Assembly (NCBI RefSeq): GCF_033472595.1
Contig: NZ_CP137642.1
Location: 496,001-560,000, forward strand
Direction: 5' to 3'
Length of the DNA stretch: 64,000 bases
Origin: Methanoculleus receptaculi
Lineage (GTDB): Archaea; Halobacteriota; Methanomicrobia; Methanomicrobiales; Methanoculleaceae
Shown here: positions 3,127 through 40,266 of the stretch, in pieces
Numbering within the stretch: position 1 is the first letter of the stretch
How the letters are laid out: every line of letters begins with the position of its first letter
The notes under the pieces: model-generated
Seen by the model: only the letters and a program-made list of their open reading frames with translations
What the model was told of the DNA's origin: nothing
Databases searched by the model: none
Program-made: the position numbers and the translations under genes

Positions 3127-3645
3127 ATGGTTGAGAAGAAATCACCGGCCAGCGGATGGCCGATCGTCAAGGGCGACTTCCATGCGGGAGACCCGCAGAG
3201 TTGCGTTGCCGTCGTCACCATGGGTTCGCATCTCGACGAGCAGGGTATCTGCGATGCCGGAGCGGCAATCGCCGGGTCTTGCAAGACCGAGAACCTTGGT
3301 CTTGAGAAGGTCATTGCAAACGTCATCTCCAATCCCAACATCAGGTTTGTCCTCTGCTGCGGTACGGAGGTGAAGGGGCATCTTGCCGGGCAGAGTTTCA
3401 TTGCTCTGCATGCGAATGGTGTCTCCGGCGGAAAGATCGTCGGTGCTCAGGGTGCCATTCCGTTCATCGAGAACCTTCCTGATGAGGCGATCAAGCGTTT
3501 CCAGGAACAGGTTGAGATCGTCAACATCATGGAGACGGAGGACCTGGCAACCATCAAGGCCAAGATCGAAGAACTTACGGCGAGAGATCCGGGTGCCCTC
3601 CCCGCAGAGCCCATGATCGTCGAGGTCAAAGAGGCGGGTGCTGCG
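3127..3645 (+). repeat. Direct repeat of the MtrA corrinoid domain, copy 2
   Basis: Second copy of the repeat at 2185-2703, coding for the N-terminal domain of the MtrA-MtrG fusion. Identity begins at the shared AACATGG around the start codon and ends where the linker to the MtrG part begins. Confidence 0.95.
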
Positions 3646-3864
3646 GCGGAAGTGGCTGTTGCAGGTGTAAACCCGCAGTTCCTCGAGATCGAGGAGAGGC
3701 TCGACGCCATCGAGGAGAAGATCGAGTTCGTGGATTCGGAGGTTGCCCAGCGCGTCGGAAGAAAGGTCGGGCGCGACATCGGTATCCTTTACGGACTGGT
3801 CGCAGGTTTGATTGTGTTCATGATGTTGCTGGTATTACTGCCCAAATTGGTTGAGTATCTGTAA
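3127..3864 (+). CDS. mtrA-mtrG: MtrA corrinoid domain fused to MtrG (second MtrA copy)
   Basis: 245 residues. Residues 1-175 are nearly identical to MtrA copy 1, including the EVKGH cobamide-ligand motif. After a short Ala/Val linker the C-terminal ~60 residues are a complete Mtr[21 protein letters not shown], then [15 protein letters not shown] and a membrane helix. MtrG is normally a separate ~75-residue subunit, and no separate mtrG exists before mtrH, so this fusion supplies it. The complex may therefore carry two corrinoid domains, or this copy may replace MtrA in some complexes. The start follows a GGGAGG site, with mtrH 15 bp downstream. Confidence 0.9.
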
Positions 3865-3879
3865 GGAGGATTGACAAAT

Positions 3880-4917
3880 ATGTTCAAGTTCGAAAAAGAA
3901 CAGGTGGTACACGACTTCAACGGTACCAAGCTCGGCGGGCAGCCTGGAGAGTACCCCACCGTGCTCGCTGCATCCATCTTCTACAACAAGCACGAGATTG
4001 TTCTGGATGACAAAACCGGAAAGATCGATAAAGAGACGGCAGAGGCTCTCTGGAACCGCTGCCAGGAACTCTCGGACATCACCGGGATTCCACACTTCAT
4101 CCAGATCATCGCGGAGTACGGTGAGGCGTTTGAAAGCTATATCGACTGGTTCTGTGGCGTAGATGACAAGACCGCATTCCTGATGGACTCGTCCGTCCCG
4201 GCGGCGCTTGCACACGCGTGCGAATATGTCACACAGTCAGGCGTTGCGGATCGCGCGATCTACAACTCCATCAACGGTTCGATCTTGCCGGAGAACATGG
4301 AGGCGCTTGCAAAGAGTGATGTAAACGCAGCCATTGTCCTGGCCTTCAACCCTGCCGATCCATCGGTGGCCGGCCGTGAGAAGGTTCTGGTCGAGGGCGG
4401 CGTCGCCGGCCAGGAACTCGGGATGCTCGAGATCGCAGAGAAGTGCGGGATCACCCGCCCGATCCTTGATACCGCAGCAACCCCACTCGGTCTGGGATCC
4501 GGTGGTGCATACCGTGAGATCCTTGCCTGCAAGGCGATCCACGGTCTTCCGACCGGTGGTGCCTACCACAACATGACCGTTTCCTGGACGTGGCTGAAGC
4601 GTTGGAAGGGTACGAAGAAGGTCCCCTCGCAGCAGCTGGCCGGGCTCGAGGGCAAGGATGCGCTGGTCAAGCAGCTCCTGCACCACTATCTTGGTGGTCT
4701 GGATGGAGTGCGCCAGGCGGCCTGGTCTGCTCCCGATATAGGCTGCAACATGATCGCAAGCACACTCGGTGCGGATCTGATCATGTACGGCCCGATCGAG
4801 AACGTCGAGGCGATGATCACCGCCCAGGCCTACACCGACATTGTCATCATGGAAGCAGCGCGTGACCTAGGGATCGAGCCCCAGGCTGAGACCCATCCAT
4901 TCTTTAAGCTAGTCTAA
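3880..4917 (+). CDS. mtrH: Tetrahydromethanopterin S-methyltransferase subunit H
   Basis: A 345-residue soluble TIM-barrel methyltransferase that takes the methyl group from methyl-tetrahydromethanopterin and passes it to the MtrA corrinoid. Recognised by the start MFKFEKEQ, the segment LGGQPGEYPTVLAASIFY, ILDTAATPLGLGSG and GLPTGGAYHNMTVSW. Length fits the family. ATG 3880 is preferred over TTG 3871, because the strong AAGGAGGA site at 3863-3870 would touch the TTG but is 9 bases from the ATG. Last gene of the mtr operon; a T-run follows. Confidence 0.96.
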   Translation: MFKFEKEQVVHDFNGTKLGGQPGEYPTVLAASIFYNKHEIVLDDKTGKIDKETAEALWNRCQELSDITGIPHFIQIIAEYGEAFESYIDWFCGVDDKTAFLMDSSVPAALAHACEYVTQSGVADRAIYNSINGSILPENMEALAKSDVNAAIVLAFNPADPSVAGREKVLVEGGVAGQELGMLEIAEKCGITRPILDTAATPLGLGSGGAYREILACKAIHGLPTGGAYHNMTVSWTWLKRWKGTKKVPSQQLAGLEGKDALVKQLLHHYLGGLDGVRQAAWSAPDIGCNMIASTLGADLIMYGPIENVEAMITAQAYTDIVIMEAARDLGIEPQAETHPFFKLV

Positions 4918-5437: not shown

Positions 5438-6628
5438 ATGATCGTTTCCTACAAGTACCGGGTGTATCCAGACGCAACCGTGGAAACACGGCTGAACACT
5501 GCACTTGATACCTGTAGGTGGCTCTACAACAAACTTCTCGAAGAATGCAACACGGCACGAGAGAATGGAATCTCTCCGACGATGCGAGAAATGCAGGCGC
5601 GGATCGTCACGCTGAAAGAGGAGAATCCTGCACTCAAGGACGTATACTCTAAAGTGCTCCAGATGGTCAACTATACCCTCTGGAGCAACATCGCTGCACT
5701 CTCGCAGACAAAGAAGAGAGGACGGAAGATCGGCAAACTCCGATTCAAGAGTGCAGCCCGATACCGGACGCTCAATTATAATCCGTCGGTTTTCAAGATC
5801 GATCGCGAGCATAGTTCGATTACGTTCTCGAAGATCGGAACGATTCCGTTCAACATGCACCGACCCTACACCGGGAGGGTGAAGGGTGTCCTGATCACCC
5901 GTTCCGGCGATAGATGGTATGTGATCATTCAGACAGAGCAGGAGGTCTACAAGTCAAAGCGTGAAGGGCGTTCAGTCGGCATCGATCTCGGGTTGGATTC
6001 GTTTGCAGTCGATAGCGATGGCGCGGTGATAGAGAACCCCCGGTTCTATGAACATTCTCTGGGCAGGATCAAGAAGATCCAGCGGAGTCTTGCCCGGAAA
6101 CAACGGTTCTCGAAAAACTGGAAGAAAGCAAAAGGGAAACTGGAGAAGGTCTATGATCATGTCACCAACCAGAAGAACGATTTCCTGCACAAACTCTCCC
6201 GTCAGTACGTTGACACCTATGCAACGATCTGTGTTGAAGACCTGAATATCAAGTATTTGAAAGAGAACGGCAAATCTCGCGGGATCCGGAGAAGTATCCA
6301 CAGTGCGTCGTGGGGACGATTTTATTCTTACCTCTCGTACAAGGCTGAAAGTGCTGGTACGGAACTCGTCAAAGTCGATCCCCGCGACACGACACAGATG
6401 TGTTCGAACTGTGGAAGCATCGTGAAAAAGACGCTCTCCGAGAGAGTCCACGAATGCCCATACTGTGGGTTTGTTGCCGATAGAGATTACAATGCTGCGG
6501 TAAATATCCACCGCGTGGGGATGGAACAGCCCTTTGAGCCTGTGGAGCCAAGACCTCTACATCACATCTCTGTGGTGCAAGTGTTGGCCATGATAGCCGG
6601 GAAGCCCCGCCCGAGAGGCGCGGGGTAG
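5438..6628 (+). CDS. tnpB: TnpB, RNA-guided nuclease of an IS200/IS605 element
   Basis: 396 residues, full length for TnpB. The start MIVSYKYRVYPDA and the helical N-terminal domain are typical. The RuvC-like site is complete: Asp183 in GIDLGLDSFAVD, Glu267 in CVEDLNIKYL, and Asp348/Asp350 in DRDYNAAVNI. A zinc ribbon (CSNCG...CPYCG) lies before the last motif. TnpB proteins are known to cut DNA guided by an RNA made from the element's right end. The stop at 6626-6628 lies within the right-end hairpin. The gene appears intact although its tnpA is not. Confidence 0.93.
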   Translation: MIVSYKYRVYPDATVETRLNTALDTCRWLYNKLLEECNTARENGISPTMREMQARIVTLKEENPALKDVYSKVLQMVNYTLWSNIAALSQTKKRGRKIGKLRFKSAARYRTLNYNPSVFKIDREHSSITFSKIGTIPFNMHRPYTGRVKGVLITRSGDRWYVIIQTEQEVYKSKREGRSVGIDLGLDSFAVDSDGAVIENPRFYEHSLGRIKKIQRSLARKQRFSKNWKKAKGKLEKVYDHVTNQKNDFLHKLSRQYVDTYATICVEDLNIKYLKENGKSRGIRRSIHSASWGRFYSYLSYKAESAGTELVKVDPRDTTQMCSNCGSIVKKTLSERVHECPYCGFVADRDYNAAVNIHRVGMEQPFEPVEPRPLHHISVVQVLAMIAGKPRPRGAG

Positions 6629-9288: not shown

Positions 9289-10239
9289 ATGCGGAGGACG
9301 GCACCGCTAACCATCCTGGCACTCATCTGCGCCCTTATCATCAGCGCGGGCTGTGCAGTCACTCTCGGGCCCGCAGGCATCCCGCTTAAAACTCTCCTCT
9401 CTTCACCGAACACCTGGATGATCTTCTGGGACGTCCGTCTTCCCCGCGTCTTCACCGCGGCGCTGGTCGGTTGCGGGCTTGCCGTGGCGGGCACGACAAT
9501 GCAGGGACTCTTCCGGAACCCCATGGCAGACCCGTACATCATCGGCACCTCCTCTGGGGGGGCGCTCGGGGCCACGATTGCAATCGTCCTCCTCGCCGGC
9601 AGCGGCCGTCCAGTACTCGCGTTCCTTGGGGCGATCGCCGCAACCTTCACCGTCTACTTCATCGCCCGGAGCGGCGGGAAGGTCCCGGTCGAGACGCTCC
9701 TCCTCTCCGGTGTCGCTCTCTCAACGCTTCTTTCAGCTCTCCTCTCCTTTTTGATGTATACCGCAGGGCGGAGCCTCCACCAGATCATGTTCTGGCTGAT
9801 GGGCGGATTCTGGAACGTATCCTGGAACGACTTCTTCATATCTCTCCCCATCCTGATGGGGTGTGGAGGGATCTACCTCTTCGCACGGGACCTAAACGTT
9901 CTCTCATTGAACGAGGAGGATGCGATCCATCTCGGGGTGAACGTCGAGCAGGTGAAAGGGATCCTCCTTGCCCTGAGCGCGTTCGTGACAGGGATAGCCG
10001 TTGCAGTGGCTGGATCGATAGGGTTCATCGGGCTGATCACGCCGCATCTCATGCGTCTTATCGTCGGGCCAGACCACCGCCTCCTCATCCCGGCGGCCGC
10101 GCTTGCCGGGGCCATCCTCCTTCTCTGGTCAGACACCCTTACCCGGACGTTTACAAACGACATGCCGGTCGGGATCATAACCGCATGTTTCGGTGCACCT
10201 TTCTTCATATACCTCCTGCGGAGCCGGATGAGAGCATGA
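9289..10239 (+). CDS. btuC: ABC transporter permease, FecCD/BtuC family
   Basis: 316 residues with about ten membrane helices. It shows the family blocks RLPRVFTAALVGCGLAVAG, QGLFRNPMADPYIIG and GSIGFIGLITPHLMRLIVG (the coupling-helix region). Such permeases import corrinoids, haem or iron-siderophores. I chose ATG 9289 rather than the upstream open frame because hydrophobicity begins there and the promoter lies just upstream. The neighbours (ATPase, BtuF-like binding proteins, transcobalamin-like surface proteins) favour a corrinoid substrate, but an iron chelate cannot be excluded. Confidence 0.87.
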   Translation: MRRTAPLTILALICALIISAGCAVTLGPAGIPLKTLLSSPNTWMIFWDVRLPRVFTAALVGCGLAVAGTTMQGLFRNPMADPYIIGTSSGGALGATIAIVLLAGSGRPVLAFLGAIAATFTVYFIARSGGKVPVETLLLSGVALSTLLSALLSFLMYTAGRSLHQIMFWLMGGFWNVSWNDFFISLPILMGCGGIYLFARDLNVLSLNEEDAIHLGVNVEQVKGILLALSAFVTGIAVAVAGSIGFIGLITPHLMRLIVGPDHRLLIPAAALAGAILLLWSDTLTRTFTNDMPVGIITACFGAPFFIYLLRSRMRA

Positions 10240-11492
10240 AACCTATCGAGATCATCGGTGTCGACGTATCCTACGGGGCAAAGAAGATCCTGGAGGAGAT
10301 CTCGTTCCATGTAGATAAGGGCGAGATCCTCGGGATCATCGGACCGAACGGATCGGGGAAGACGACACTGCTCAGGGCGATGAGCCGGGTTGTTGCAAGG
10401 GACCGTGGGGAGATTCTTCTTGACAGCCACGACCTGGATACCCTGGGGCACCGTGAACTTGCGCGCCGGGTTGCGGTCGTCCCGCAGGACATATCGATTG
10501 GTTTCGACTACACGGTGCGTGATGTCGTCATGATGGGCAGGCACCCCCACATCGGGAGGCTTGCCTCCGAGACGGCACGGGACGTGGAGATCTGTGAGCG
10601 CGCCATGCGCCTTGCAAACGTCGCGCACCTGGCTGGCGCATCGGTGCACGATATCAGCGGTGGGGAGCGCCAGAGGGTGCTCATAGCCCGGGCGCTTGCA
10701 CAGGAGCCAGAGATCCTCCTGCTCGACGAGGCGACATCGAACCTGGATGTCAGCCACCAGGTTGAGATCCTTAACATCATCCGTGACCTGGCCGGGGGTA
10801 TCGCGGTGGTCAGCGTCTTCCACGACCTCAACCTGGCTGCGTACTACTGTGATCGACTGCTGCTCCTCAAAGACCGGAAGGTCTACGCCACCGGGGCGCC
10901 TGCGGACGTCCTCACATGCGAGAACATCCGCGAGATCTTCGGGATGGAGACGCTTGTCAGGCCACACCCTCTGACCGGGAGACCCTATGTCCTGCCGGTC
11001 TACACCAAAACCACGGGTGCCGGGGTGAACCGGCGGGTGCATCTCGTCTGCGGTGGGGGGACAGGGTCTGATATACTTTACCTGCTCCGTGCTGCGGGGT
11101 TCACGGTAACCTGCGGCGTCCTAAACGTCCTGGACACGGATTACGGAACGGCCGTGCACCTTGGTATCCCCGTCGTTGCAGAACCGCCGTTTCACGGCAT
11201 AACCACGGCATCCCTTGCGGCCGTCAGGGAGTGGCTTGACCGGGCGGATGCCATCGTCGTGACGGCAATGCCTATAGGTCCCGGAAACCTCGACAACATT
11301 CGTGTGCTGCTCGATTACCCTGAAAAACCCCTCTTTCTCTACTCCGGGAACGGCAGCGTCCGGATGGAGGACTGCACCGGGGGCGAGGCGGATAAGGTTC
11401 TTGCGGAGATTGAGGCGCGGGGGGCGGTGAGGGTCGGGGGAGCGGAGGTTCTCATCACCCTCCTCTCGCAGCAGCAGATCGGTCGGGAGTGA
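10236..11492 (+). CDS. btuD: ABC transporter ATPase of BtuD type with C-terminal extension
   Basis: 418 residues. Residues 1-250 are a standard ATPase: Walker A GPNGSGKTT, Q-loop VVPQD, signature ISGGERQR, Walker B ILLLDEATSNLD and the switch His in FHDLNL. The C-terminal ~160 residues (from about 262) form an extra Rossmann-like domain (VHLVCGGGTGSDILYLL ... ADAIVVTAMPIGPGNLDN). A similar extension is known in some archaeal BtuD-type proteins; its role is unclear and regulation by ligand is only a guess. ATG 10236 overlaps the permease stop by 4 bp. The same frame is open far upstream, but that part is the shadow of the permease. Confidence 0.88.
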   Translation: MKPIEIIGVDVSYGAKKILEEISFHVDKGEILGIIGPNGSGKTTLLRAMSRVVARDRGEILLDSHDLDTLGHRELARRVAVVPQDISIGFDYTVRDVVMMGRHPHIGRLASETARDVEICERAMRLANVAHLAGASVHDISGGERQRVLIARALAQEPEILLLDEATSNLDVSHQVEILNIIRDLAGGIAVVSVFHDLNLAAYYCDRLLLLKDRKVYATGAPADVLTCENIREIFGMETLVRPHPLTGRPYVLPVYTKTTGAGVNRRVHLVCGGGTGSDILYLLRAAGFTVTCGVLNVLDTDYGTAVHLGIPVVAEPPFHGITTASLAAVREWLDRADAIVVTAMPIGPGNLDNIRVLLDYPEKPLFLYSGNGSVRMEDCTGGEADKVLAEIEARGAVRVGGAEVLITLLSQQQIGRE

Positions 11493-11556
11493 CCCCGCAC
11501 CCGCTGCATTGGGTCGCCGGTCCGGGAAAATCATTACGCTCAATGGGAGTCTATTG

Positions 11557-12630
11557 ATGGTTATGCGACCCATACGCCTGATACCTCCTGTATCGTTTCT
11601 CATACTGCTCTTGCTTCTCGCCGCTGCAGCGGGTGCTGTGCCTCCGACCCCCGGCGTGCCACCAGTAGCGATGGAAACGGCCGATGGCGGCCGAAGCGTA
11701 ACGCTGACCGACGATCTCGGGGAGACCGTCGTCATAGAAGGAACCCCGCAGAGGATCGTATCGCTTGCGCCCTCCAACACCGAGATACTGTATGCCATCG
11801 GGCTTGAGGATCGTGTGGTCGCCGTCACCGACTACTGTGACTACCCTCCGGAAACAGCCGGTAAACCAACGGTTGGTGGGTTCAGCACGGTCAACATCGA
11901 GAAGGTGATCGTGATGAACCCGGATCTCATCCTTGCCGCGCCTGCCAATACGGAAGAGATCATCGATCGGCTGCGCTCGCTGGGGCTGACCGTTGTCACA
12001 CTCGATCCCCAGGCGATCGAGGACGTTCTGCATGACATCGAGTTTCTCGGCAGGGTGACCGGCAATGAGGCGGAGGCCTCGGCGCTTGTCGACGAACTTC
12101 GGGCGCGCATCGATGCAGTGGTTGCAGGGACTGGAAACCTCACAGAACGCCCTTCTGTTGCCCATGTCATCTGGTATGACCCACTGTGGGTCAGCGGCAG
12201 TGATACGTTCCAGGACGAGGTCATAACGCTGGCCGGGGGGATGAATGCGTTTGGTTCGCTTGAAGGCTGGAGTATCGTAAGCCTCGAGGAGTTCATCACC
12301 ACCGACCCCGATTGTATCCTGGTCAGTTCTGGCAGCGGTATGGGCCAGGAGGGTTACGATGCCGTCTACAACTACATCGTGAACGAACCCCGCCTCCAGA
12401 ACCTTGATGCGGTCAGGGAAGGCCGCGTCTACGTCGTCGATGCCGATGTAGTCAGCCGCGGAGGGCCGAGGATCGTGGACGCGCTGGAAGAGGTGGCGGC
12501 CATTCTCCACGGGGAAACCCCGGCGCCGACCGTTCCGAAGACCACCAATGCGCCAGAGTCAGGGGGATTTGGTCTGATCCCGATCGTTTCTGCCCTGTTT
12601 GCTGTAATCCTGCTCTGGAGGGATCGGTAG
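11557..12630 (+). CDS. btuF: Corrinoid/iron-chelate binding protein, BtuF family, membrane-anchored
   Basis: 357 residues. An N-terminal signal/anchor helix (IRLIPPVSFLILLLLLAAAAG) is followed by a BtuF/FepB periplasmic-binding fold from about residue 55: VTLTDDLGETVVIEGTPQRI, then SLAPSNTEILYAIG, VWYDP-like VIWYDPLWVSG and SRGGPRIVDALEEVAA. A second hydrophobic segment at the C-terminus (GFGLIPIVSALFAVILLWRD) would anchor it to the cell surface. ATG 11557 has a GGGAG site 8 bases upstream. It closely resembles the binding domain fused in the 16640-18628 gene. Confidence 0.87.
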   Translation: MVMRPIRLIPPVSFLILLLLLAAAAGAVPPTPGVPPVAMETADGGRSVTLTDDLGETVVIEGTPQRIVSLAPSNTEILYAIGLEDRVVAVTDYCDYPPETAGKPTVGGFSTVNIEKVIVMNPDLILAAPANTEEIIDRLRSLGLTVVTLDPQAIEDVLHDIEFLGRVTGNEAEASALVDELRARIDAVVAGTGNLTERPSVAHVIWYDPLWVSGSDTFQDEVITLAGGMNAFGSLEGWSIVSLEEFITTDPDCILVSSGSGMGQEGYDAVYNYIVNEPRLQNLDAVREGRVYVVDADVVSRGGPRIVDALEEVAAILHGETPAPTVPKTTNAPESGGFGLIPIVSALFAVILLWRDR

Positions 12631-12780
12631 GTTCGAAATAGTTTGACCCGGGCGGGGGGGCCAATATTTAGCGCGAGAGTTCCTGTTCGAGGGGTGCTGC
12701 AAAGTCCCACATTTTCTCTGTTTATCAACTTATAATAGCCCGTAGAGATGCCTGGTGACCTCCAGGAGCCAGGTTGAGGT

Positions 12781-12863
12781 TTGGTTACATAAGCAAATTA
12801 TATGTAGTTATATAAAATTAAATTTGCAAAGTTTTATTAATTTAGATAAAGTGTACTTGTACT
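12781..12863 (+). promoter_or_regulatory. AT-rich promoter before the surface-protein genes
   Basis: After a 150-bp GC-rich spacer following the BtuF gene, about 80 bases are strongly AT-rich (ACATAAGCAAATTATATG, then TTATTAATTTAGATAAAGTG) directly before ATG 12864. TATA-like TTATATAAA at 12809-12817 is a candidate. This suggests the three surface-protein genes can be transcribed separately from btuCDF. Confidence 0.55.
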
Positions 12864-15800
12864 ATGAGGCCTAAACGGTTGCTCCCCTTTGCGGGATCTA
12901 TTGTCCTTTTGTTACTGCTCGTTGGGGTGGCGAGTGCATCATATCCAATGTTCCACTACGATCAGCAGCGGACCGGCTACGTCCCCGAAGAAGGGCCGCA
13001 GACAGATGCCCTCCTCTGGATTGCGGAGACCGCTGAATGGGCCGATGGTTCACCTGCGGTGTATAACGGAAAAGTCTTCGTCCCGACCTGGCCTGATATG
13101 AACTTCGGCGAAGCCAACCCGATGGGGCTTGTCTGCTATGACGCCGTCACCGGGGTGGAGGTCTGGACGAATGAACTTGGCGGCGTCAGCGTTGGTTCCG
13201 TCTCGGGGGTCGCCGTCGCTGACGGTTATGTCTACCTCGGCGGGACCGATGGACGTCTCTACTGCATCGATGAAGAGACGGGAGATACACTCTGGGTGAG
13301 CGATCGGATCGACACCACCGGCTATTTTGGGCTCTCGTCATCGCCTCTTGTCTACGAAGGAAAAATCTACGCCCTCTCTGCTTCAGATGGCGTGCTGCAT
13401 GCCTTCGATCCTGATGGTACCGAAGCCTGGAGATTTGAAACGGGTAAGGGTGTGATCTACTTCACCTCTCCTGCAGGCTACGATGGAAAGATCTACTGCG
13501 CAGGAAACAGGAGCCAGATCTTCTGCATCGACCCTGCAGCGCAGACCGCCATCTGGAGATTTAATCAGGGGGGATCGGTAAAGTCTTCGCCGGTCATCGG
13601 AGCGGACGGAACAGTTTACTTCACCACCTCGTCGCGGTGCTACGCCCTCGACGGCAGCACAGGCACAGAGCGCTGGAACAGTTCCGTGACCGGGACGATG
13701 TCGACCCCTGTCATTGCTGACGGTTATATCTATGTAGGGGCTTATGATGGCCTCCACTGCCTGGACGCCTCGACCGGTGAGGAGGAATGGCATTTCCAGG
13801 CAAAAGAGGTAAACGTTGCACCGGTTGTTGCCGGCAACCTCGTCTACGCCGCGACAAACGAGGAGACAGGAACCCTGTATGCGGTGGACGCCGAGACCGG
13901 CGAACCGGTCTGGTCATACTCCCTCGAAGCCCCTGGCGACGGGACGTTCTCTGCGTTCTACACATCATCTCCCGCTGTATCGGGCGGTGTTCTCTACATC
14001 GGAGCCGAGAACAACCGCTTCTACGCCTTCGGGGAAGGAGAGGTACCGGAACCTGCGTTTACCGGATGGAGCGGAACTGTCAGCCTGACAGACGGCCAGA
14101 CCTTCGAGGTCACGCCGTTCAACAACGAGAGTGCCGTCTACACCATCAACCGGACATCAGCGCTCGGGGCTCTCGATGCCGCCGCAACGAAAGGCGGGTT
14201 TAACTACACAATCCAGGAGACCACCTGGGGTCTGTTCCTCTATTCCATCGGCGGTATCGCCTACAACGATACTACATGGGACTCCTGGCTCTATTCGGTC
14301 AACGGGGTGCCTGCAGAGGTCGGTGCCGCCGATTACTCTCTCAAGGATGGGGATCTTGTCACCTGCTGGTATGGTCCCTGGGGTTCATCGCCAGAAACCG
14401 CCCGTGCGGCGGTCAACATTACCGTCTCCATCCCGCTGCCTCCTGCATCGGTCACCACGCTATGGAACGGGACGGTGACCTTGATAGAAGGTGAGACCTT
14501 CCAGTTCGTCCCCCCGAACAACGAAAGTGCCTCGTACACGATTAACCGCACCACTGACCTCGGGGCTCTCGATGCCGCCGCAGTTCGCGGGAACTTTACC
14601 TTCAACGCCTCCGATGCCTGGTACGCATCTTATGGGTCGTTCCTGCTCGAGGATATCGCCGGCATCGCAAACGAGGACTGGACAGAGGAGAACGCGCGGT
14701 CATGGAGCATCTTCATCAACGGTGCGGCGGCATCCGCAGGGCTCGGAGCGAACACCCTCGCAGACGGCGACAGGCTCGCCTTCTACTACTGCCCCGCGGA
14801 TCCAGACACGTATGCCCCGCTCATAGACCAGGCCGATTACGCCGTCATTATCGACGTCACCCTTCGCGACTTTGCGTGGGAGGGAACTGTCAGCCTGACA
14901 GACGGCCAGACCTTCGAGGTCACGCCGTTCAACAACGAGAGTGCCGTCTACACCATCAACCGGACATCAGCGCTCGGGGCTCTCGATGCCGCCGCAACGA
15001 AAGGCGGGTTTAACTACACAATCCAGGAGACCACCTGGGGTCTGTTCCTCTACTCCATTGGCGGTATCGCCTACAACGATACTACATGGGACTCCTGGCT
15101 CTATTCGGTCAACGGGGTGCCTGCAGAGGTCGGTGCCGCCGATTACTCTCTCAGGGAGGGGGACGTCGTCACATACTGGTATGGTCCCTGGGGTTCATCG
15201 CCAGAAACCGCCCGTGCGGCAGTCAACATCACCGTCTCCATCCAGGCATCGGGTGGCGGTGGTGGCGGAGATGGCGGTGGCGGCGGCGATTCGTCACCCT
15301 CCTGGGTCAGCGTCACCCTTGCAGCGGGCACATTCAACATCACCCCTACGAACAGTGGAAAGACCTACACGGTCGATCGACAGACCGCGCTGGGGGCCCT
15401 CGATGCAACGGGGATCGCATACACCATCAACGACGCTTATTACCAGGAGTATGGCTCGCTCTTCATCGACTCCATCCGGGGCAGGGCGAACGAAGGGACC
15501 GCGGGCTGGATGTACCAGGTGAACGGTGAAAGCCCTGGCGTCGGTGCAAACGCATATGCCGTCCAGAACGGCGATGAGGTTGTCTTCTTCTGGAGCGAGA
15601 GTATGAGTTCAACCCCGGCAACCTCGCGGGATACCATCTTCATCAGGGTCGTGACCCCGGGGTCGTCGTCCGGTGGTTCCGGATCGGGTTCATCAGGAAG
15701 CGGTTCCGGCGGTTCGGGTTCCACATCGACCACCACGACCACGGGAACCGGTGAACCAGGAGAGGTCCTCTCGTTCTCCCTCGGGTTACCGGCAGGGGCC

Positions 15801-16640
15801 ACAGTTAAACTCGGAGAATGGGGTCAGAGTTTCTCGATTGATCTCACCGCAGGAGATAGATCCACGGAACAGGTAAACGTATCAGGAAACACCGTCATCA
15901 TCAACCGGGAAGGTGTAAAACTGGTCATCACCGCCCGGAACATCGATAAGAAAGGTGGCCTGGCCGCGGGCCTGGTAGAGCGTGTCACGGCATCGGTCGG
16001 CCCCGTCAGGGCCAATTTCAGCACTACGGGCGTTATCGCTGCATCAGTAAACCTAAACCTCACAGGCATCCCTGGGGACGGCCAGATCAGGATCTCCCTG
16101 AATGAGACCCCCGATGCAGAGACAGCGCGCGAATTCCATCTCGCCTCGGCAGAGAATGGCAAAGATGTCACCGCAGTTGCCTACAGCATGACCGTCACGC
16201 GGATCAACCTGGAGAACGGCAGAGATGTCGCGGGAGCGGTGATCACGATGACCATAAACCCTGCGTGGGTGGATGAGCACGGCGGTCTGGATGCCATAAG
16301 GATCGCGCGGTCTGCGGAGGACGGTACCTGCACCATACTTGATACCCGGCCAGCCGGGAGCGATGCAGATGGCAACCTGATCTTCGAAGCAGTATCTCCC
16401 AACGGTCTATCTACTTTCGGCCTTCTGGCGGTTGGGGTGGTCCCGGCCGCCGGGGCCGGAGGAGAGGAGGAGACCGGGGTGATCGCTCCGACCACCGCCC
16501 TGGGCAGTCTTGCCACCACACCAGAGATGCACAACACAGCGGCAAAGCTGCCCCTCTCATCACCGCTTCTCATTATCGGTGTGTGCACGATCCTGCTCGT
16601 GGGAGCGGCATACCTCATCATCAAGCGGAGGAGAACCTGA
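12864..16640 (+). CDS. Surface protein: beta-propeller plus four DUF4430 (transcobalamin beta-domain-like) repeats
   Basis: 1258 residues. Signal peptide 1-25; PQQ-type beta-propeller about 30-395 (repeats such as LYCIDEETGDTLWVSD and LYAVDAETGEPVWSYS); four DUF4430 domains at about 402-525, 533-665, 672-795 and 815-930. Each carries the pattern YTINRTSALGALDAA ... GLFLYSIGGI ... SWLYSVNGVPAEVGA ... DGDLVTCWYG. A Gly/Ser/Thr linker, a beta-rich region and a C-terminal membrane helix with RRR tail (about 1232-1258) follow. DUF4430 resembles the C-terminal domain of transcobalamin/intrinsic factor, which contacts B12. Lying after btuCDF, it probably captures corrinoids or another ligand outside the cell; that is inference. 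Its stop overlaps the next start. Confidence 0.82.
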   Translation: MRPKRLLPFAGSIVLLLLLVGVASASYPMFHYDQQRTGYVPEEGPQTDALLWIAETAEWADGSPAVYNGKVFVPTWPDMNFGEANPMGLVCYDAVTGVEVWTNELGGVSVGSVSGVAVADGYVYLGGTDGRLYCIDEETGDTLWVSDRIDTTGYFGLSSSPLVYEGKIYALSASDGVLHAFDPDGTEAWRFETGKGVIYFTSPAGYDGKIYCAGNRSQIFCIDPAAQTAIWRFNQGGSVKSSPVIGADGTVYFTTSSRCYALDGSTGTERWNSSVTGTMSTPVIADGYIYVGAYDGLHCLDASTGEEEWHFQAKEVNVAPVVAGNLVYAATNEETGTLYAVDAETGEPVWSYSLEAPGDGTFSAFYTSSPAVSGGVLYIGAENNRFYAFGEGEVPEPAFTGWSGTVSLTDGQTFEVTPFNNESAVYTINRTSALGALDAAATKGGFNYTIQETTWGLFLYSIGGIAYNDTTWDSWLYSVNGVPAEVGAADYSLKDGDLVTCWYGPWGSSPETARAAVNITVSIPLPPASVTTLWNGTVTLIEGETFQFVPPNNESASYTINRTTDLGALDAAAVRGNFTFNASDAWYASYGSFLLEDIAGIANEDWTEENARSWSIFINGAAASAGLGANTLADGDRLAFYYCPADPDTYAPLIDQADYAVIIDVTLRDFAWEGTVSLTDGQTFEVTPFNNESAVYTINRTSALGALDAAATKGGFNYTIQETTWGLFLYSIGGIAYNDTTWDSWLYSVNGVPAEVGAADYSLREGDVVTYWYGPWGSSPETARAAVNITVSIQASGGGGGGDGGGGGDSSPSWVSVTLAAGTFNITPTNSGKTYTVDRQTALGALDATGIAYTINDAYYQEYGSLFIDSIRGRANEGTAGWMYQVNGESPGVGANAYAVQNGDEVVFFWSESMSSTPATSRDTIFIRVVTPGSSSGGSGSGSSGSGSGGSGSTSTTTTTGTGEPGEVLSFSLGLPAGATVKLGEWGQSFSIDLTAGDRSTEQVNVSGNTVIINREGVKLVITARNIDKKGGLAAGLVERVTASVGPVRANFSTTGVIAASVNLNLTGIPGDGQIRISLNETPDAETAREFHLASAENGKDVTAVAYSMTVTRINLENGRDVAGAVITMTINPAWVDEHGGLDAIRIARSAEDGTCTILDTRPAGSDADGNLIFEAVSPNGLSTFGLLAVGVVPAAGAGGEEETGVIAPTTALGSLATTPEMHNTAAKLPLSSPLLIIGVCTILLVGAAYLIIKRRRT
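14072..14434 (+). repeat. Near-identical DUF4430 repeat, copy 1
   Basis: Bases 14072-14434 and 14883-15245 are direct repeats 811 bp apart, identical by eye apart from a few changes (mainly near 14343-14370 versus 15154-15181). They encode DUF4430 domains 1 and 3. Domains 2 and 4 are diverged, so this pair was duplicated or converted recently. Confidence 0.9.
14883..15245 (+). repeat. Near-identical DUF4430 repeat, copy 2
   Basis: Partner of the repeat at 14072-14434, coding for the third DUF4430 domain of the surface protein. Confidence 0.9.
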
Positions 16641-18628
16641 TGAAGCGGATCGGTCTCACCCTCTTCATCCTCCTCCTCTGTGTCGTCTCGTGCGGCGCTT
16701 ATCCGCTGAACACGGATGACCCCGGCATCCAGGCCTCGGTTGATTATATCCGTGGTTGCCAGAAGAGTGACGGCGGTTTCGGGGAGATCGGGCGCGAGAG
16801 CAGCCCAGGCACGACATCGTGGGTGATAATGGCAGCCGTCGCTGCTGGCGAAGATCCGCGGAACTGGGCGAACGGAGGAAACTCGACCCTTGACTACCTC
16901 CGCTCGATGAACGACGAGATCCTGGCAAAAGGAGGAACCGTAGATATCGCCCGCACCATCCTGACTCTGGTCGCGATCGGAGAGGATCCACACGCTTTTT
17001 GCGGGACTGACCACGTCACGGAACTGAAATCTCGGGTAAAACCTGATGGCCAGGCAGGAGATCACGTTTACACGACCATCTGGACGATCATAGCCCTGGC
17101 TTCGGTCGGCGAAGATACCGATTCGTCGGCCGAATGGCTGATAGCCAGGCAGAACACCGACGGTGGATTTCCCTGGACGCAGGGTGCTGAAAGCGACCCG
17201 GACGATACCGGTGCCGCGCTTGAAGCCCTCGCAGCGGCAGGCGTCTCCAGCGATGCGACTGTGGTGCAGAACGCCCTCGCCTACCTGAAAGGAATGCAGC
17301 AGGATGACGGCGGGTTCCATTACGGCGGGACGAGTGCTACAAACGCTGCCTCCGATGCCTGGGTTATCCAGGGTATCGTCGCCGCAGGAGACAACCCCGC
17401 CGAGTGGGTGGTGGGGGAGAGGGATGTGGTTGAGCACCTCCTCGGGCTCCAGAACCCAGATGGATCGTTTCGCTACACCGCCTACGTTACAGACAGTCCC
17501 TGCCGGATGACGGCAAGCGCGATACCTGCACTCCTTGGAATGCCCTACCCCATAACATCTGCACAGGTTCAGCAGCCGCAATCCTCCACCCAGGAACCAC
17601 GCGCAACGACTGTTCCCCTGGCCACGACCCCAACCGCGATCCCAACCGTTACAACCGCTCCGGTGGTGATGGATAACAGCCAGAGATCCGTTACAGTAAC
17701 CGATGACTTCGGGGAGATCATCACCATCCGGGGAACCCCGCAGAGGATCGTATCGCTTGCCCCATCAAACACCGAGATACTTTATGCTCTCGGGCTTGAG
17801 GACCGCGTGGTCGCCGTCACCGACTACTGCAACTACCCTCCCGAAGCGGCAGATAAACCCCAGGTCGGCGGCTACAGCACCACCAACATCGAGAAGGTGA
17901 TCGCAGCGGAACCGGATCTGGTCCTCGCCGCTTTCGGGAATACCGAGGATGTTGTCAACCGTCTGCGGTCTCTGGGGCTAACTGTTGTCTCCCTCAACCC
18001 GCTGACGGTCGAAGACGTCCTGCACGACATCGAACTTGTCGGTGTGGTGACCGGCCAGGAGGAAGAGGCCTCGACGCTCGTTGGGGAACTCCAGGCCCGT
18101 GTAGAGGCGGTGACCGGGAAGACTGAGACACTGGAGGAAAAACCATCGGTCACCCATGTCGTCTGGTACGACCCGATCTGGGTCAGCGGCAGGGATACGT
18201 TCCAGGACGAGGTGATCAGGATGGCCGGGGGTGTTAACGTATTCGATCAGGTCGATGGATGGGGTATCGTCAGCCTTGAAGAGTTTATCGTCATGGATCC
18301 GGATTACATCCTGGTCAGTTCCGGAGACGGTATGAGTGAGAGGGGGCGCGATATCGTCTATGACTACTTCATGAATGAACCACGGATGCAGGAACTCACC
18401 GCAGTCAGGAACGGCCGCGTCTACGTCATCGATGCTGACGCCGTCAGCCGCGGAGGGCCGAGGATCGTGGACGCGCTGGAAGAGGTGGCGGCCATTCTCC
18501 ACCCTGACCAATTTGAGACGGTCAGCCCGAAAGAGACCACCGTGGCCCGGTCGCCGGGTTTCAACGTGATCACTCTTGCCTGTGCGCTCCTTGTTCTTCT
18601 CCTGGTCCATGAAAGAGGCAGGAAGTGA
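16640..18628 (+). CDS. Alpha/alpha-barrel (transcobalamin/prenyltransferase-like) fused to BtuF-type binding domain
   Basis: 662 residues. Signal peptide 1-20. Residues about 25-305 form prenyltransferase-type alpha-barrel repeats, recognised by recurrent DGGFGEIG, TDGGFPWTQG, DDGGFHYGG and NPDGSFRYT followed by helices such as TGAALEALAAAG. The same fold makes the N-terminal half of transcobalamin and intrinsic factor. A Pro/Thr/Gln linker leads to a complete BtuF domain (about 345-630; RIVSLAPSNTEILYALG, VVWYDPIWVSGRD), then a C-terminal anchor helix. ATG 16640 overlaps the upstream stop. The barrel may hand ligand to the fused BtuF domain, which delivers it to the permease; inference from domain order and operon. 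Confidence 0.82.
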   Translation: MKRIGLTLFILLLCVVSCGAYPLNTDDPGIQASVDYIRGCQKSDGGFGEIGRESSPGTTSWVIMAAVAAGEDPRNWANGGNSTLDYLRSMNDEILAKGGTVDIARTILTLVAIGEDPHAFCGTDHVTELKSRVKPDGQAGDHVYTTIWTIIALASVGEDTDSSAEWLIARQNTDGGFPWTQGAESDPDDTGAALEALAAAGVSSDATVVQNALAYLKGMQQDDGGFHYGGTSATNAASDAWVIQGIVAAGDNPAEWVVGERDVVEHLLGLQNPDGSFRYTAYVTDSPCRMTASAIPALLGMPYPITSAQVQQPQSSTQEPRATTVPLATTPTAIPTVTTAPVVMDNSQRSVTVTDDFGEIITIRGTPQRIVSLAPSNTEILYALGLEDRVVAVTDYCNYPPEAADKPQVGGYSTTNIEKVIAAEPDLVLAAFGNTEDVVNRLRSLGLTVVSLNPLTVEDVLHDIELVGVVTGQEEEASTLVGELQARVEAVTGKTETLEEKPSVTHVVWYDPIWVSGRDTFQDEVIRMAGGVNVFDQVDGWGIVSLEEFIVMDPDYILVSSGDGMSERGRDIVYDYFMNEPRMQELTAVRNGRVYVIDADAVSRGGPRIVDALEEVAAILHPDQFETVSPKETTVARSPGFNVITLACALLVLLLVHERGRK

Positions 18629-18634
18629 TGCAGC

Positions 18635-19774
18635 GTGCGGCAGAGTCTAACCCTTACCTTGCTTTTTGCTGTTCTTGCTGTTCTTGCTGTTCTTGCGCTC
18701 GGCAGTCTCGTCTACCCGGTTGCCGGGCAGGAGATATCCGGCAGCGAGGTCTGGCTGTCCGGGGTTGGAGACCCGGTTATGGCGGTTGCACTCTCAGAGG
18801 ATGGTCTATACAGTCCTGTCATCACGGAATGGAATATCTACGTCTATGATCAGAACGCTACGGTTCTCTGGCGTTACCCGGTGTCCCATGGCGAGAGTGT
18901 GGCCATCTCATCAGACAGCGAACGCGTCGTTGCCGCCGGTGACCATCTTCTGCTGTTTGACCGGGAAGGAAACATCATATGGCGCTATAAACCGGATTCC
19001 CGCATCCGGGACGTTGCTCTCACCGCTGACGGACGGACCATCTGCACGGCAACTGATGCCGGCCTCTGTGTCTTCTCCCTGAACAAGGAGCGAACGGTCG
19101 CTAACGTCTCCTGGACGTTTGAGGCGGAAGACCGGATCAAAAGTGTATCGGTCGATGGCGGGGGTACGGGTACCGTTGCCGGCGGGGCCGCGGGTGATGT
19201 ATACTTCCTCAGCGGGGATGGGCGCCTCCTCTGGACGTACAGAACGGGTAATGGCGGAATCAAGGCGGTCATCTCCCGCGACGGATCGACGGTTGCCGCA
19301 GCATCCAGCCAGCAGGTGATCCTCCTGAATCGAAACGGACAGCTCCTCTGGAAGTCTTCGGTGCCAGGGAGGATCGTCGATGTTGCGATCTCCAGAGACG
19401 GTTCGACTCTTCTCCTGGCAAACGGAGGTGTTGCAGTCTTCAACCGGAGCGGAGAGAACATATGGACGTACGCAACAGAAGAGGATATCGGGTCGGTCTC
19501 CGCTCCATCTGCGAGTATGCAATTTCTAACCGGCGCGTTCGACGGGAGTGTATCGTTCTTTGTGCTGCAACCAGAAACCATCTCATGCGGGACACCGGAT
19601 GATACTTTATCTAACGCCGTCACCGCTGCCGCCGAACCATCTCAAACCAGCGTCGCACCCCCTCAGGGGCAAACAACCTCACAACAGGAGGGGATGGCAC
19701 TCTCCCCGACAACGCCGGTTGCTGTGGTTGCATCTGCTGCTGCCCTGATCTGGTTGCGAAGAGAGGGACGGTAG
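18635..19774 (+). CDS. Anchored beta-propeller surface protein
   Basis: 379 residues from GTG 18635, with AGGAAG 9 bases upstream and 6 bases after the previous stop. Signal peptide 1-30 contains the repeated AVLAVLAVLAL. Residues about 40-320 form WD40/PQQ-like blades (LLLFDREGNIIWRYKPD, VYFLSGDGRLLWTYRTG, VAVFNRSGENIWTYA), then a Ser/Thr/Gln-rich linker and a C-terminal helix (TPVAVVASAAALIWLRREG). It is co-directional with the two preceding surface proteins and probably belongs to the same assembly. No ligand can be inferred from sequence; propellers often mediate protein contacts. Confidence 0.75.
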   Translation: MRQSLTLTLLFAVLAVLAVLALGSLVYPVAGQEISGSEVWLSGVGDPVMAVALSEDGLYSPVITEWNIYVYDQNATVLWRYPVSHGESVAISSDSERVVAAGDHLLLFDREGNIIWRYKPDSRIRDVALTADGRTICTATDAGLCVFSLNKERTVANVSWTFEAEDRIKSVSVDGGGTGTVAGGAAGDVYFLSGDGRLLWTYRTGNGGIKAVISRDGSTVAAASSQQVILLNRNGQLLWKSSVPGRIVDVAISRDGSTLLLANGGVAVFNRSGENIWTYATEEDIGSVSAPSASMQFLTGAFDGSVSFFVLQPETISCGTPDDTLSNAVTAAAEPSQTSVAPPQGQTTSQQEGMALSPTTPVAVVASAAALIWLRREGR

Positions 19775-19787
19775 GCCCTTGTTCTCT

Positions 19788-20531
19788 ATGCCCACACTGA
19801 ATTCTATCGGCTGCTCAACCTGGTGCCTGATGGACCGGTCACTTGAGGAGGCGCTGGATGCGATCTCCAGCCTCACAGGTTGTGCGGAGATCCTCTCTGA
19901 CAGCCTTCACTCCCTCTTCGTATCTGAAGAAGCCTGCCATTCATTTGATCTGCAGTATACGGTTCACGCCCCTACAGGTGATATAAATATAGCATCCGAG
20001 AACGAGCGCCTCCGGAAGGCGGCCATCCAGGTCATCGGGGACCTCGCGGAGGTCTGTGATCGTATCGGCGCTGTGAGACTGGTCATTCATCCCGGGCACG
20101 TCTGGGAGGAGGAAAGGCGCGGTGCCGCACAACGGGCCCTCGATCGGTCGCTTGACGACCTTGCCGCGATGCAGCAGGAGGTAAACGTAAGGTTTGCCGT
20201 CGAGAACATGGGGACGTGGGATGTCTGTTTCTTCAGGGAACCGGATTTCCTCGGCCGTCTTGCCGATACTGGACTGGGTTTTGCCCTCGATGTGGGCCAC
20301 GCCCACGCAAACGGCAACCTGGAAACATTCCTGGAACTGGGGGGAGCGATCCACGTTCACCTGCACGACAACTGCGGCAACCGGGATGACCACCTGGCAT
20401 GCGGTGAGGGGAACATCGATTTTCGTCGCGTGCTGGCAGCCGTCCCGGCGGGCGCCACGAAAGTTCTCGAACCGGTCTCGTTTCAACAGTTCGAGCAAAG
20501 CCTCGATTACCTGGAGCGTCTCACCCCCTGA
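19788..20531 (+). CDS. Sugar phosphate isomerase/epimerase-like TIM-barrel protein
   Basis: 247 residues with xylose-isomerase-like (AP-endonuclease 2) features: TVHAPTGDINIA, RLVIHPGHVW, VRFAVENMG, GFALDVGHAHANG and IHVHLHDN, which supply the conserved His, Glu and Asp metal ligands. Start ATG 19788 follows the surface-protein stop by 13 bases; a TTG at 19779 is less likely. The substrate is unknown: enzymes of this fold in methanogens act on sugars or are uncharacterised. No pathway context is visible; it may simply be the last gene of the transcript. Confidence 0.75.
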   Translation: MPTLNSIGCSTWCLMDRSLEEALDAISSLTGCAEILSDSLHSLFVSEEACHSFDLQYTVHAPTGDINIASENERLRKAAIQVIGDLAEVCDRIGAVRLVIHPGHVWEEERRGAAQRALDRSLDDLAAMQQEVNVRFAVENMGTWDVCFFREPDFLGRLADTGLGFALDVGHAHANGNLETFLELGGAIHVHLHDNCGNRDDHLACGEGNIDFRRVLAAVPAGATKVLEPVSFQQFEQSLDYLERLTP

Positions 20532-37469: not shown

Positions 37470-37988
37470 ATGAGAGGCTCCCCGCCAGATCGGCTCATCT
37501 GCCTCATCCTGCTGCTAATGCTCGTTCCGGCCGCAGCATGGGGCGCCACGGTCACCCGGACGCTCTCCACCGCCGAGCCGGGGGCGGGCGAGGTCTTTGA
37601 GGTCTCGCTCTCTATCGAGGGGATCACCCTCGGCGGCGTCGTGGAGACTCTGCCGCCCGGCTACACCTTCGCGGGAACCGACCACCCGGCTGACCGCATC
37701 CTGGCCAGAGACAGGCAGGTCGCGTTTGCGCTGATAAACGAGACCCTTATAACCTACAAGGTCAGGGCGCCCTCCTCCGGCAGCGGGGATATAACCGGCA
37801 TCTGGGAAGACTTCCTGGGCGAGTCAAACGGCACCATCCCCGCCTCACATCTCGCGGTGGACGGTATCGAGACAGAAGAAGAGAACACCCCGCAGGAGAG
37901 GCCGACACAGGAGGCCGCCCCGCCGTTTGCCCTCCTTACAGCGATAGTTGCTCTCATCATCGCCCGGCGGTGGGGTGGTCAGCGATGA
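37470..37988 (+). CDS. Membrane-anchored surface protein upstream of an ABC importer
   Basis: 172 residues: signal peptide about 1-25 (LICLILLLMLVPAAAWG), a beta-rich extracellular domain (VTRTLSTAEPGAGEVFEVSL ... GVVETLPPGYTFAGTDHP ... LINETLITYKVRAPSSGSGD), a Glu/Pro-rich linker and a C-terminal helix with RRW tail. Similar domains occur in archaeal S-layer-associated proteins. It overlaps the start of the binding-protein gene by 4 bp, so it probably works with the transporter as a surface partner. Specific ligand unknown. Confidence 0.7.
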   Translation: MRGSPPDRLICLILLLMLVPAAAWGATVTRTLSTAEPGAGEVFEVSLSIEGITLGGVVETLPPGYTFAGTDHPADRILARDRQVAFALINETLITYKVRAPSSGSGDITGIWEDFLGESNGTIPASHLAVDGIETEEENTPQERPTQEAAPPFALLTAIVALIIARRWGGQR

Positions 37989-39202
37989 ACCGGCGTATCA
38001 TCCTCATCCTTCTCCTCCTCCTCCTCGCCGTCCCGGCATCGGCGGCTGAGGGCAGCATACCGGGAGATGCCGATGGGGATGACGTCCTCACCTTCAGCGA
38101 GTACACCGCGGCAGCCCTCTCCTATCTCGACGCCGCCTACATGGGTGGTGCCGGAGAGATAGACCGCGATGACATCCTGGACGCCGCCTGGGTCTACGCC
38201 CGCTGGGATGGAAAACCGCTTCTGGTCACCGACTCATCTGGAAGAGACCTGACGCTCTACCGCCCCCTGCGCCGGGTTGTGACCTTCAGCGGTGAGGCTC
38301 TCGAGACGCTGCGGTCTGTCGGGTTCGATATGGAGAAGGTTGTGGCCGTCGACAAGTACACCCACGAGAAAAGCACGTTCTTCCCCGAATGCCAGGATAA
38401 ACCGAACGTCGGTTCGATCTGGTCGCCAGATATGGAGAGGGTCGTCTCCCTCCGGCCGGACGCCGTATTCCTCTACGCGAGTATCAGCACATCGGCCTGC
38501 GACGATATCCAGCGCAGGCTTGAGGCGAGCTGTCCTGGTATCCGGGTTTTCAGGTTCGACTGCTTTAAGCCCGCAACCTATCCGGAGGAGATCCGAAAGA
38601 TCGCCGCGATCGTAGACGAACCCTGGCAGGGAGAAGAGTTTGCCTCATTCTACGAGTCGACGATGGACAGGATCCGGGAGGGCACGGCAGATATACCGGT
38701 CGATGAGCGTGTCCGGGTATACTTCGAGTACTGGACGGACTACAAGACCGTCGCGGCCGGATCCGGGTATAACGAGAAGATCGAGATCGCTGGTGGGCTG
38801 AACCCCTTTGCCGGCGAGAGCGGGGAGTATCCCATCATCGACCCTGAGGCGGTCATCGTCGCTGACCCGCAGGTGATCGTGAAACTGGCCGGGCAGGGCC
38901 TGGCCGTCGGCGGCTACGCCCGGCGCGACACAGAAGCGCTGGCCGAGATCAGGTCGGCGCTGCTTGAACGCCCCGGCTGGTCCAGGATCTCCGCCGTGAA
39001 GGACGGTCGGGTCTACGTCATCCATTCGGATATCCTTGGCGGTGCCCAGCACTTCATCGGGACGGCTTACCTGGCGAAGTGGTTCTACCCCGACAGGTTC
39101 GCCGACCTCGACCCGCACGCCATCCACCAGCGTTACTTAAGCGAGTTCCAGGGGATCGATTTCGATCTCGCGTCTATGGGAAGTTTCGTCTACCCCGAAT
39201 AG
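37985..39202 (+). CDS. ABC substrate-binding protein (BtuF/FepB type) with EF-hand-like N-terminus
   Basis: 405 residues. Signal peptide 1-21, then a dockerin/EF-hand-like stretch (IPGDADGDDVLTFSEYTAAA ... GEIDRDDILDAAWVY). From about residue 75 a class III binding domain follows: TDSSGRDLTLYRPLRRVVTF, then EALETLRSVGFDMEKVVAVD and DGRVYVIHSDILGGAQHFIG. There is no C-terminal anchor; Cys residues in SACDDIQRRLEASCPG may pair. ATG 37985 overlaps the preceding stop. It probably delivers an iron-chelate, corrinoid or similar ligand to the permease that follows. Confidence 0.85.
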   Translation: MNRRIILILLLLLLAVPASAAEGSIPGDADGDDVLTFSEYTAAALSYLDAAYMGGAGEIDRDDILDAAWVYARWDGKPLLVTDSSGRDLTLYRPLRRVVTFSGEALETLRSVGFDMEKVVAVDKYTHEKSTFFPECQDKPNVGSIWSPDMERVVSLRPDAVFLYASISTSACDDIQRRLEASCPGIRVFRFDCFKPATYPEEIRKIAAIVDEPWQGEEFASFYESTMDRIREGTADIPVDERVRVYFEYWTDYKTVAAGSGYNEKIEIAGGLNPFAGESGEYPIIDPEAVIVADPQVIVKLAGQGLAVGGYARRDTEALAEIRSALLERPGWSRISAVKDGRVYVIHSDILGGAQHFIGTAYLAKWFYPDRFADLDPHAIHQRYLSEFQGIDFDLASMGSFVYPE

Positions 39203-39213
39203 GAGCCATCGCC

Positions 39214-40266
39214 ATGGAGCAGAATATCAGTCTTTACGAGGGCTACGCGCGGCTGAAGAGGACACGCGCCGCCTTTATGCTTGCCCTCATCTTCGGACTC
39301 ATCCTCCTCATCGGGATAGCGGTCACCCTCGGGTCGGCCGATCTCGGAGTGGCTGAGTCCTATCTCGCGATCCTGGCCGGTCTCTTCCCCGGCAGGTTCA
39401 GTGCTCCGGAACTTGCAATCACCATCGTCTGGGACTACCGGCTCCACCGGGTGCTCTTCGCGGTCTGCGCCGGGTTCGGGCTCGCGGTGGCGGGTTCGGT
39501 GATGCAGGGGATCCTCCGAAACCCACTTGCAAGCCCATTCACGCTCGGTATCGCCTCGGCGGCGGCCACCGGCGCAGCCGTTGCGATAGTCATGGGCGCC
39601 GGGGTTCTCGGCGGGGAGTACCTCATCATAGGCAACGCTTTCCTCTTTGCCCTGCTTGCCGCGTTTGCCATCTACGGGATGGCCCGATACAGAGGAGTGG
39701 GCTCGGAGACGATGGTCCTTGCCGGGATCGCGCTCATGTACCTCTTCTCGGCGGTGACCTCGCTCCTCCAGTACGTCGGCAGCAGCGAAGAGCTCCAGGC
39801 AGTGGTATTCTGGATGTTTGGGTCGGTTGACAAGTCAACCTGGCTGAAACTCGGGATCGTCGCGCTTGTCCTTGCCTGCACCGTCCCTTACCTGGTATAC
39901 CGTGCCTGGGACCTCAACGCTCTGGCAGAGGGTGACGAGGTGGCGGCCGGTCTCGGGGTGCCGGTCGAGCGTTCGATGATGGTCATGATGCTTATCGCCT
40001 CGCTCATCACAGCGGTGATCATATGTTTCACCGGGACGATCGGGTTCATCGGGCTTGTTGCGCCGCACATCACACGCATGATCATAGGTAGCGATTTCAG
40101 AACGCTCCTTCCGGCATCCGGTCTCATCGGTGCTCTCCTTCTCCTGGCGGCAGACAGTATCGCCCGAAGCGTCCTTGCACCGCAGGTCATCCCTGTCGGT
40201 ATCGTGACCGCGTTTCTCGGGGTGCCGTTCTTCATCTACCTCTTCCTGCACCGGAGGGATGCCTGA
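39214..40266 (+). CDS. ABC transporter permease, FecCD family
   Basis: 350 residues, about ten helices. Family blocks: VWDYRLHRVLFAVCAGFGLA, GSVMQGILRNPLASPFTLGI, GTIGFIGLVAPHITRMIIG and QVIPVGIVTAFLGVPFFIYL. The in-frame extension upstream of ATG 39214 is the shadow of the binding-protein gene. It lies 11 bases after the binding protein and overlaps the ATPase start by one base. It is diverged from the permease at 9289, so the two importers are not recent duplicates. Confidence 0.88.
   Translation: MEQNISLYEGYARLKRTRAAFMLALIFGLILLIGIAVTLGSADLGVAESYLAILAGLFPGRFSAPELAITIVWDYRLHRVLFAVCAGFGLAVAGSVMQGILRNPLASPFTLGIASAAATGAAVAIVMGAGVLGGEYLIIGNAFLFALLAAFAIYGMARYRGVGSETMVLAGIALMYLFSAVTSLLQYVGSSEELQAVVFWMFGSVDKSTWLKLGIVALVLACTVPYLVYRAWDLNALAEGDEVAAGLGVPVERSMMVMMLIASLITAVIICFTGTIGFIGLVAPHITRMIIGSDFRTLLPASGLIGALLLLAADSIARSVLAPQVIPVGIVTAFLGVPFFIYLFLHRRDA

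Follow-up and report, generated by a model that had tools for sequence, protein, structure and literature searches.

A candidate archaeal surface system for corrinoid capture and import with transcobalamin-type domains

The window analysed here, a stretch of 64,000 nucleotides from Methanoculleus receptaculi (contig NZ_CP137642.1 of assembly GCF_033472595.1, positions 496,001 to 560,000), contains a gene cluster whose products probably catch corrinoids (B12-type cofactors or their precursors) at the cell surface and import them, as judged from sequence comparisons and predicted structures. Genes for a BtuC-BtuD-BtuF importer are followed by genes for three anchored surface proteins and by a gene for a CbiR-like protein, all on the forward strand. 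DUF4430 domains on an anchored propeller protein, together with an anchored alpha/alpha toroid domain (the toroid), would bind extracellular corrinoid. The toroid would hand the ligand to its own BtuF domain, tethered to it by a flexible linker, and the loaded BtuF domain would dock on BtuC-BtuD for ATP-driven import. Inside the cell, the CbiR-like enzyme (CbiZ in relatives) would trim the imported cobamide for re-use.

An earlier note on this DNA had described the importer genes and the three surface proteins, and all were found at the positions it gave, with matching domains. The BtuC-type permease (316 residues; 9289-10239) belongs to the FecCD family (Pfam FecCD, E 6.6e-91), and its top NCBIfam model is the vitamin B12 permease PRK09535 (346 bits, below the cut-off of 461). 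For the BtuD-type ATPase (418 residues; 10236-11492) the top model is the corrinoid ATP-binding cassette (ABC) transporter ATPase PRK09536 (349 bits, below the cut-off of 537), in a match that ends at residue 346. The ATPase has a C-terminal extension (residues ~266-418, window 11031-11492) with no match in Pfam, which is kept in most archaeal and in some Firmicutes relatives. The BtuF-type substrate-binding protein (11551-12630; Peripla_BP_2, E 8.4e-36) ends in an anchor-like C-terminus and finds the BtuF proteins of Vibrio (E 5e-30) and E. coli (E 1e-21) in the PDB. Past a 233-bp AT-rich gap lies the gene for a 1258-residue anchored protein (12864-16640), which combines a PQQ-type beta-propeller (Pfam PQQ_2, E 1e-40) with four DUF4430 domains (Pfam DUF4430, E 1.7e-44), delimited with our own hidden Markov model at 14151-14375, 14547-14792, 14961-15185 and 15378-15596; these are the sole DUF4430 matches in the complete 1.98-Mb genome. 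The DNA around domains 1 and 3 (14079-14450 and 14889-15260) is 93.5% identical, pointing to a recent internal duplication. The next gene (16640-18628) encodes a 662-residue anchored protein in which the toroid (16700-17554; Pfam SQHop_cyclase_C, E 1.3e-13) is joined to a second BtuF domain (Peripla_BP_2, E 6.2e-41) by a flexible linker rich in Thr and Pro (residues about 306-346). This protein is 90% identical to its counterpart in Methanoculleus sp. Yes49-05 (locus L001). The BtuF domain has been duplicated in the window, with 66% identity between the two copies. The third surface protein is a 379-residue anchored beta-propeller (18635-19774; PQQ_2, E 8.9e-14). Four bp past its gene starts the CbiR-like gene (19779-20531; NCBIfam NF041277), not mentioned in the earlier note, which encodes an AP-endonuclease-2 TIM barrel with a putative role in cobamide remodelling. 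All the surface proteins have signal-peptide-like N-termini and hydrophobic C-terminal anchors, as judged by eye. From the tight spacing between 16640 and 19779 (by coordinates, a 1-base overlap, 6 bp and 4 bp), the genes for the DUF4430 protein, the toroid-BtuF protein, the second propeller and the CbiR-like protein look like one transcription unit.

The proposal that DUF4430 resembles the beta domain of transcobalamin was borne out at both the profile and the fold level. Built from 21 archaeal DUF4430 domains, a profile run against the PDB returned human transcobalamin-1 (TCN1) first (E 1.9e-5) and intrinsic factor next. When the DUF4430 profile was aligned by hhalign with one made from intrinsic factor, TCN1 and TCN2, whose sequences had been verified against the PDB, the two matched with a probability of 97% (E 2.9e-11, 74 columns), all control pairings remaining below 1%. 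A Foldseek search with an AlphaFold2 model of domain 1 (model m3c7042299210; predicted local distance difference test, pLDDT, 95.2) placed transcobalamin, intrinsic factor or haptocorrin at every one of ranks 1-17 (best E 1.3e-4, probability 1.00, target TM-score 0.64, with a high root-mean-square deviation of about 9 A). By profile and modelled fold, DUF4430 is a relative of the transcobalamin beta domain.

The likeness of the toroid to the alpha domain of transcobalamin (TC-alpha), also put forward in the earlier note, was borne out in part, at the level of the alpha/alpha toroid fold class. The fold was predicted with high confidence for a natural DUF4430-toroid fusion of Archaeoglobus (L024:9233-11137; pLDDT 89.6, predicted TM-score 0.67), whose top-ranking Foldseek matches were squalene-hopene cyclases, terpene cyclases and prenyltransferase beta subunits. 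Profile searches likewise put the toroid nearer to terpene cyclases and prenyltransferases, and hhalign relates it to TC-alpha in a weak match (probability 32%, E 5e-4). As far as profiles and models go, the toroid belongs to the expected fold class, not SPECIFICALLY TC-alpha, and a specific match to the latter was dropped.

The association of the toroid with DUF4430 and with the importer extends well beyond this genome. In an order-level survey of 150 genomes, the toroid family was present in 45, DUF4430 in 57 and both in 41, so that DUF4430 accompanies 41 of the 45 toroid genomes as against 16 of the 105 toroid-free ones (Fisher p 4e-19, uncorrected for phylogeny); in these 16, the DUF4430 matches are mostly weak. 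Comparison of 20 order-level toroid loci, representing 8 genera and 4 families and picked mainly from long contigs, found the toroid-BtuF fusion, DUF4430, BtuC and BtuD together in all 20, with orientation and order varying. The same gene set recurring in all 20 loci from 8 genera argues that the co-location is not due to chance. The co-occurrence check called for in the earlier note had a positive outcome. A wider set comprised 58 toroid loci, some of them from one genome present in two collections. The toroid is fused to BtuF in 27; DUF4430 is present in all of these, BtuC and BtuD in 25 and a CbiR-like gene in 17. In 21 others, mostly from Archaeoglobales, DUF4430 and toroid share one chain, with a separate BtuF in 17 of the 21 and CbiZ in 9. 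The Methanomicrobiales keep toroid and DUF4430 on separate chains and vary in DUF4430 copy number, and family f10 has a gene of its own for each of propeller, DUF4430, toroid, BtuF and BtuC. Methanoculleus sp. UBA430, at the other extreme, joins toroid, BtuF and the second propeller in a single open reading frame (ORF) of 1151 residues (L002:9653-13105); there and at locus L003 the toroid-fused BtuF is the sole BtuF seen at the locus. Across related archaea these building blocks are found fused, partly fused or unfused. That the fusion partner of the toroid is DUF4430 in Archaeoglobales but BtuF in Methanomicrobiales suggests that the three are functionally tied.

As to the ligand, the gene context strongly supports corrinoids as the substrate class, in line with the link drawn in the earlier note. 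In Archaeoglobales, a gene for CbiZ, an adenosylcobinamide amidohydrolase, lies between the BtuD and propeller genes (Pfam E 1e-41 to 1e-45). The BtuC of the window falls in a clade (support 100/100) that contains BtuC proteins from BtuC-BtuD-CbiZ operons. The gene that follows btuD differs among species of genus g20, being CbiR-like in two of them (L111 and L120) and CbiZ in others (L145-L147), likely a non-homologous replacement. CbiR and CbiZ genes often adjoin transport genes (PMC7733943), and CbiR (NF041277) is the best NCBIfam model for the CbiR-like protein of the window (E 4.1e-18), which scores 65.8 bits and falls short of the cut-off of 105. Among the 26 bacterial loci with the nearest BtuF relatives, a cobalamin riboswitch stands directly upstream of btuF in 13 (from Dehalococcoidia, Thermoflexus and Firmicutes), and one further locus (L050) also contains a riboswitch. 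The window holds a second FecCD-type importer set (37970-41054), whose substrate-binding protein has a ferrichrome-type model as its best hit and whose permease forms a long isolated branch of the BtuC tree; it was set aside as a part of the system.

How the corrinoid would be held is less firmly settled. That toroid and DUF4430 close jointly over a single corrinoid, in the manner of animal transcobalamin, we regard as an even bet. Somewhat more tentative still is the view that Methanomicrobiales divide the transcobalamin trap between two anchored surface proteins, with capture, closure and handover forming one surface machine, in which multiple propeller-borne DUF4430 lids would close over a corrinoid lying in the toroid, itself tethered to the importer's BtuF. 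Human TC-alpha and TC-beta, when produced separately, assemble only upon addition of cobalamin, and the same holds for intrinsic factor (PMC5599065); by analogy, a split arrangement would be physically plausible.

Several observations weigh against the proposed system, in whole or in part. No transcobalamin is found among the best 50 Foldseek matches of the Archaeoglobus fusion model. In family f22 (L129, L135, L140, L142 and L143), toroid, DUF4430 and propeller genes are grouped with no BtuCDF within about 10 kb, indicating that the toroid/DUF4430 pair has other uses too. It is conceivable, if on balance unlikely, that corrinoid is captured with no joint trap being formed, DUF4430 or a propeller binding it alone and the toroid providing no more than a scaffold or a place for BtuF to dock. 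The closeness of the toroid to terpene cyclases, its weak profile match to TC-alpha, the placement of the halves on different chains in Methanomicrobiales and the variable number of DUF4430 copies would all suit such an arrangement, as would the precedent of Bacteroides BtuG, a propeller that captures B12. Yet the toroid is seldom seen without a nearby DUF4430 in the Methanomicrobiales sample, it is fused to DUF4430 in Archaeoglobales, and the pairing of the two matches that of bacterial and animal B12 binders (PMC1796856). As for the propellers of the window, their sequence matches in the PDB include no chain named BtuG, a result that concerns depositor names, no fold search having been made; the idea that they are BtuG homologues was dropped. 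Many designed propellers (Cake, Scone, Bagel) are among the PDB sequence matches of the propellers at 12864-14050 and 18635-19774.

Other contrary points touch the ligand. None of BtuC, BtuD and BtuF reaches the cut-off of a curated NCBIfam B12 model. Eight relatives of the CbiR-like protein score between 45 and 71 bits, and although CbiR is the top model for seven of them, none attains the cut-off of 105; full identity with CbiR, a cobamide phosphodiesterase, was rejected for the window protein and for all eight relatives, and the gene is labelled CbiR-like for this reason. A search for the cobalamin riboswitch (RF00174) found no match in the window, so that riboswitch control of the cluster was discarded. 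Finally, CbiD, a marker of de novo cobamide synthesis, is encoded elsewhere in the genome, as is CbiZ. From these two genes, which make up the evidence on the organism's own cobamide pathway, the organism probably makes cobamides itself and the system would serve salvage; B12 auxotrophy was rejected as its reason. Taken with the sub-threshold scores and with the fact that FecCD and BtuF families carry heme and siderophores as well, the presence of CbiD might suggest that the ligand is heme, a siderophore, an F420 precursor or another metabolite. This we consider quite improbable, given that CbiZ occurs within the Archaeoglobales cluster and beside the same BtuC clade, that cobalamin riboswitches precede the nearest bacterial btuF relatives, and that BtuC and BtuD are best fitted by B12 and corrinoid models. 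Lastly, a DxD(D)T motif, similar to that of class II terpene cyclases, is invariant in the toroid (D166, D168 and T170 in 62 of 62 sequences each). It is again quite improbable, however, that the toroid is an extracellular enzyme of terpene-cyclase type, as this motif, the Pfam SQHop_cyclase_C match and the nearest folds might suggest, or a structural cell-wall protein merely located in an importer cluster, since the toroid is found on secreted, anchored proteins and has a substrate-binding protein or a transcobalamin-beta domain as its fusion partner, as one would expect for a protein that binds a ligand rather than for a lipid cyclase.

Upstream of the btu cluster lies the mtr operon. The distance of 8 kb given for it in the earlier note is about right for the DUF4430 gene, but mtrH (3871-4917) is only 4.4 kb from btuC. 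Two mtrA-like ORFs of this operon (2179-2907 and 3127-3864) are 99% identical over their first ~480 bases and diverge after; to judge from the sequence, this looks like a recent duplication, or a gene conversion, of the corrinoid-binding part of MtrA onto a second C-terminus. A TnpB-like (IS200/IS605) ORF (5438-6628) separates the operon from the btu genes.

Among the closest known systems are animal transcobalamin, intrinsic factor and haptocorrin, with which the cluster shares the match of DUF4430 to the beta domain and the presence of an alpha/alpha toroid partner, and, in the Archaeoglobales relatives, the location of both domains on one chain. Unlike the animal proteins, the window has the halves on separate anchored chains, several DUF4430 copies on a propeller, a toroid nearer to terpene cyclases, and a fusion of this toroid to BtuF, whereas the animal carrier is recognised by a receptor. 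From BtuCDF importers with CbiZ-based salvage, which have the same BtuC, BtuD and BtuF domains and CbiZ beside the same BtuC clade, the window differs in adding a surface capture layer and a toroid-tethered BtuF domain. The working mode resembles that of Bacteroides BtuG and BtuH, surface-exposed B12 binders (one being a propeller) that pass the vitamin on to an importer; these belong to other protein families by sequence, and here there is no outer membrane and an ABC importer takes the place of a TonB channel. Prokaryotic SLBB/transcobalamin-like proteins were reported by Burroughs, Balaji, Iyer and Aravind in 2007 (PMC1796856). In that paper, as in the present cluster, SLBB domains are secreted or anchored, have toroid and propeller partners and occur in euryarchaea; toroid fusions are recorded there for bacteria, together with operons tied to CbiO/CbiQ, and B12 scavenging is predicted for bacteria. 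For archaea the paper leaves the ligand open and allows one other than B12, on the grounds that archaea make their own. BtuCDF, CbiZ, CbiR and a toroid-BtuF fusion are not mentioned in the part consulted. In the literature searched, no other paper names both transcobalamin and Archaeoglobus, and DUF4430 is named in just six. The statement in the earlier note that no such archaeal system had been described needs qualifying to this extent: the importer link is absent from the part of PMC1796856 consulted, but transcobalamin-like domains of euryarchaea are reported there. The links to BtuCDF, CbiZ and CbiR, the fusions in both directions and the split arrangement appear to be new.

The links to CbiZ, to CbiR-like genes, to the riboswitch and to BtuCDF point to corrinoids as the answer to the question that Burroughs et al. 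left open, one that can now be tested directly. If the proposed reading is true, archaea would own a dedicated B12-catching surface layer, made from the domain type of intrinsic factor and transcobalamin and hard-wired to an importer. This would bear on how cofactors are shared in anaerobic communities, in which methanogens are producers of corrinoids as well as competitors for them, and on the origin of the B12 carriers of animals.

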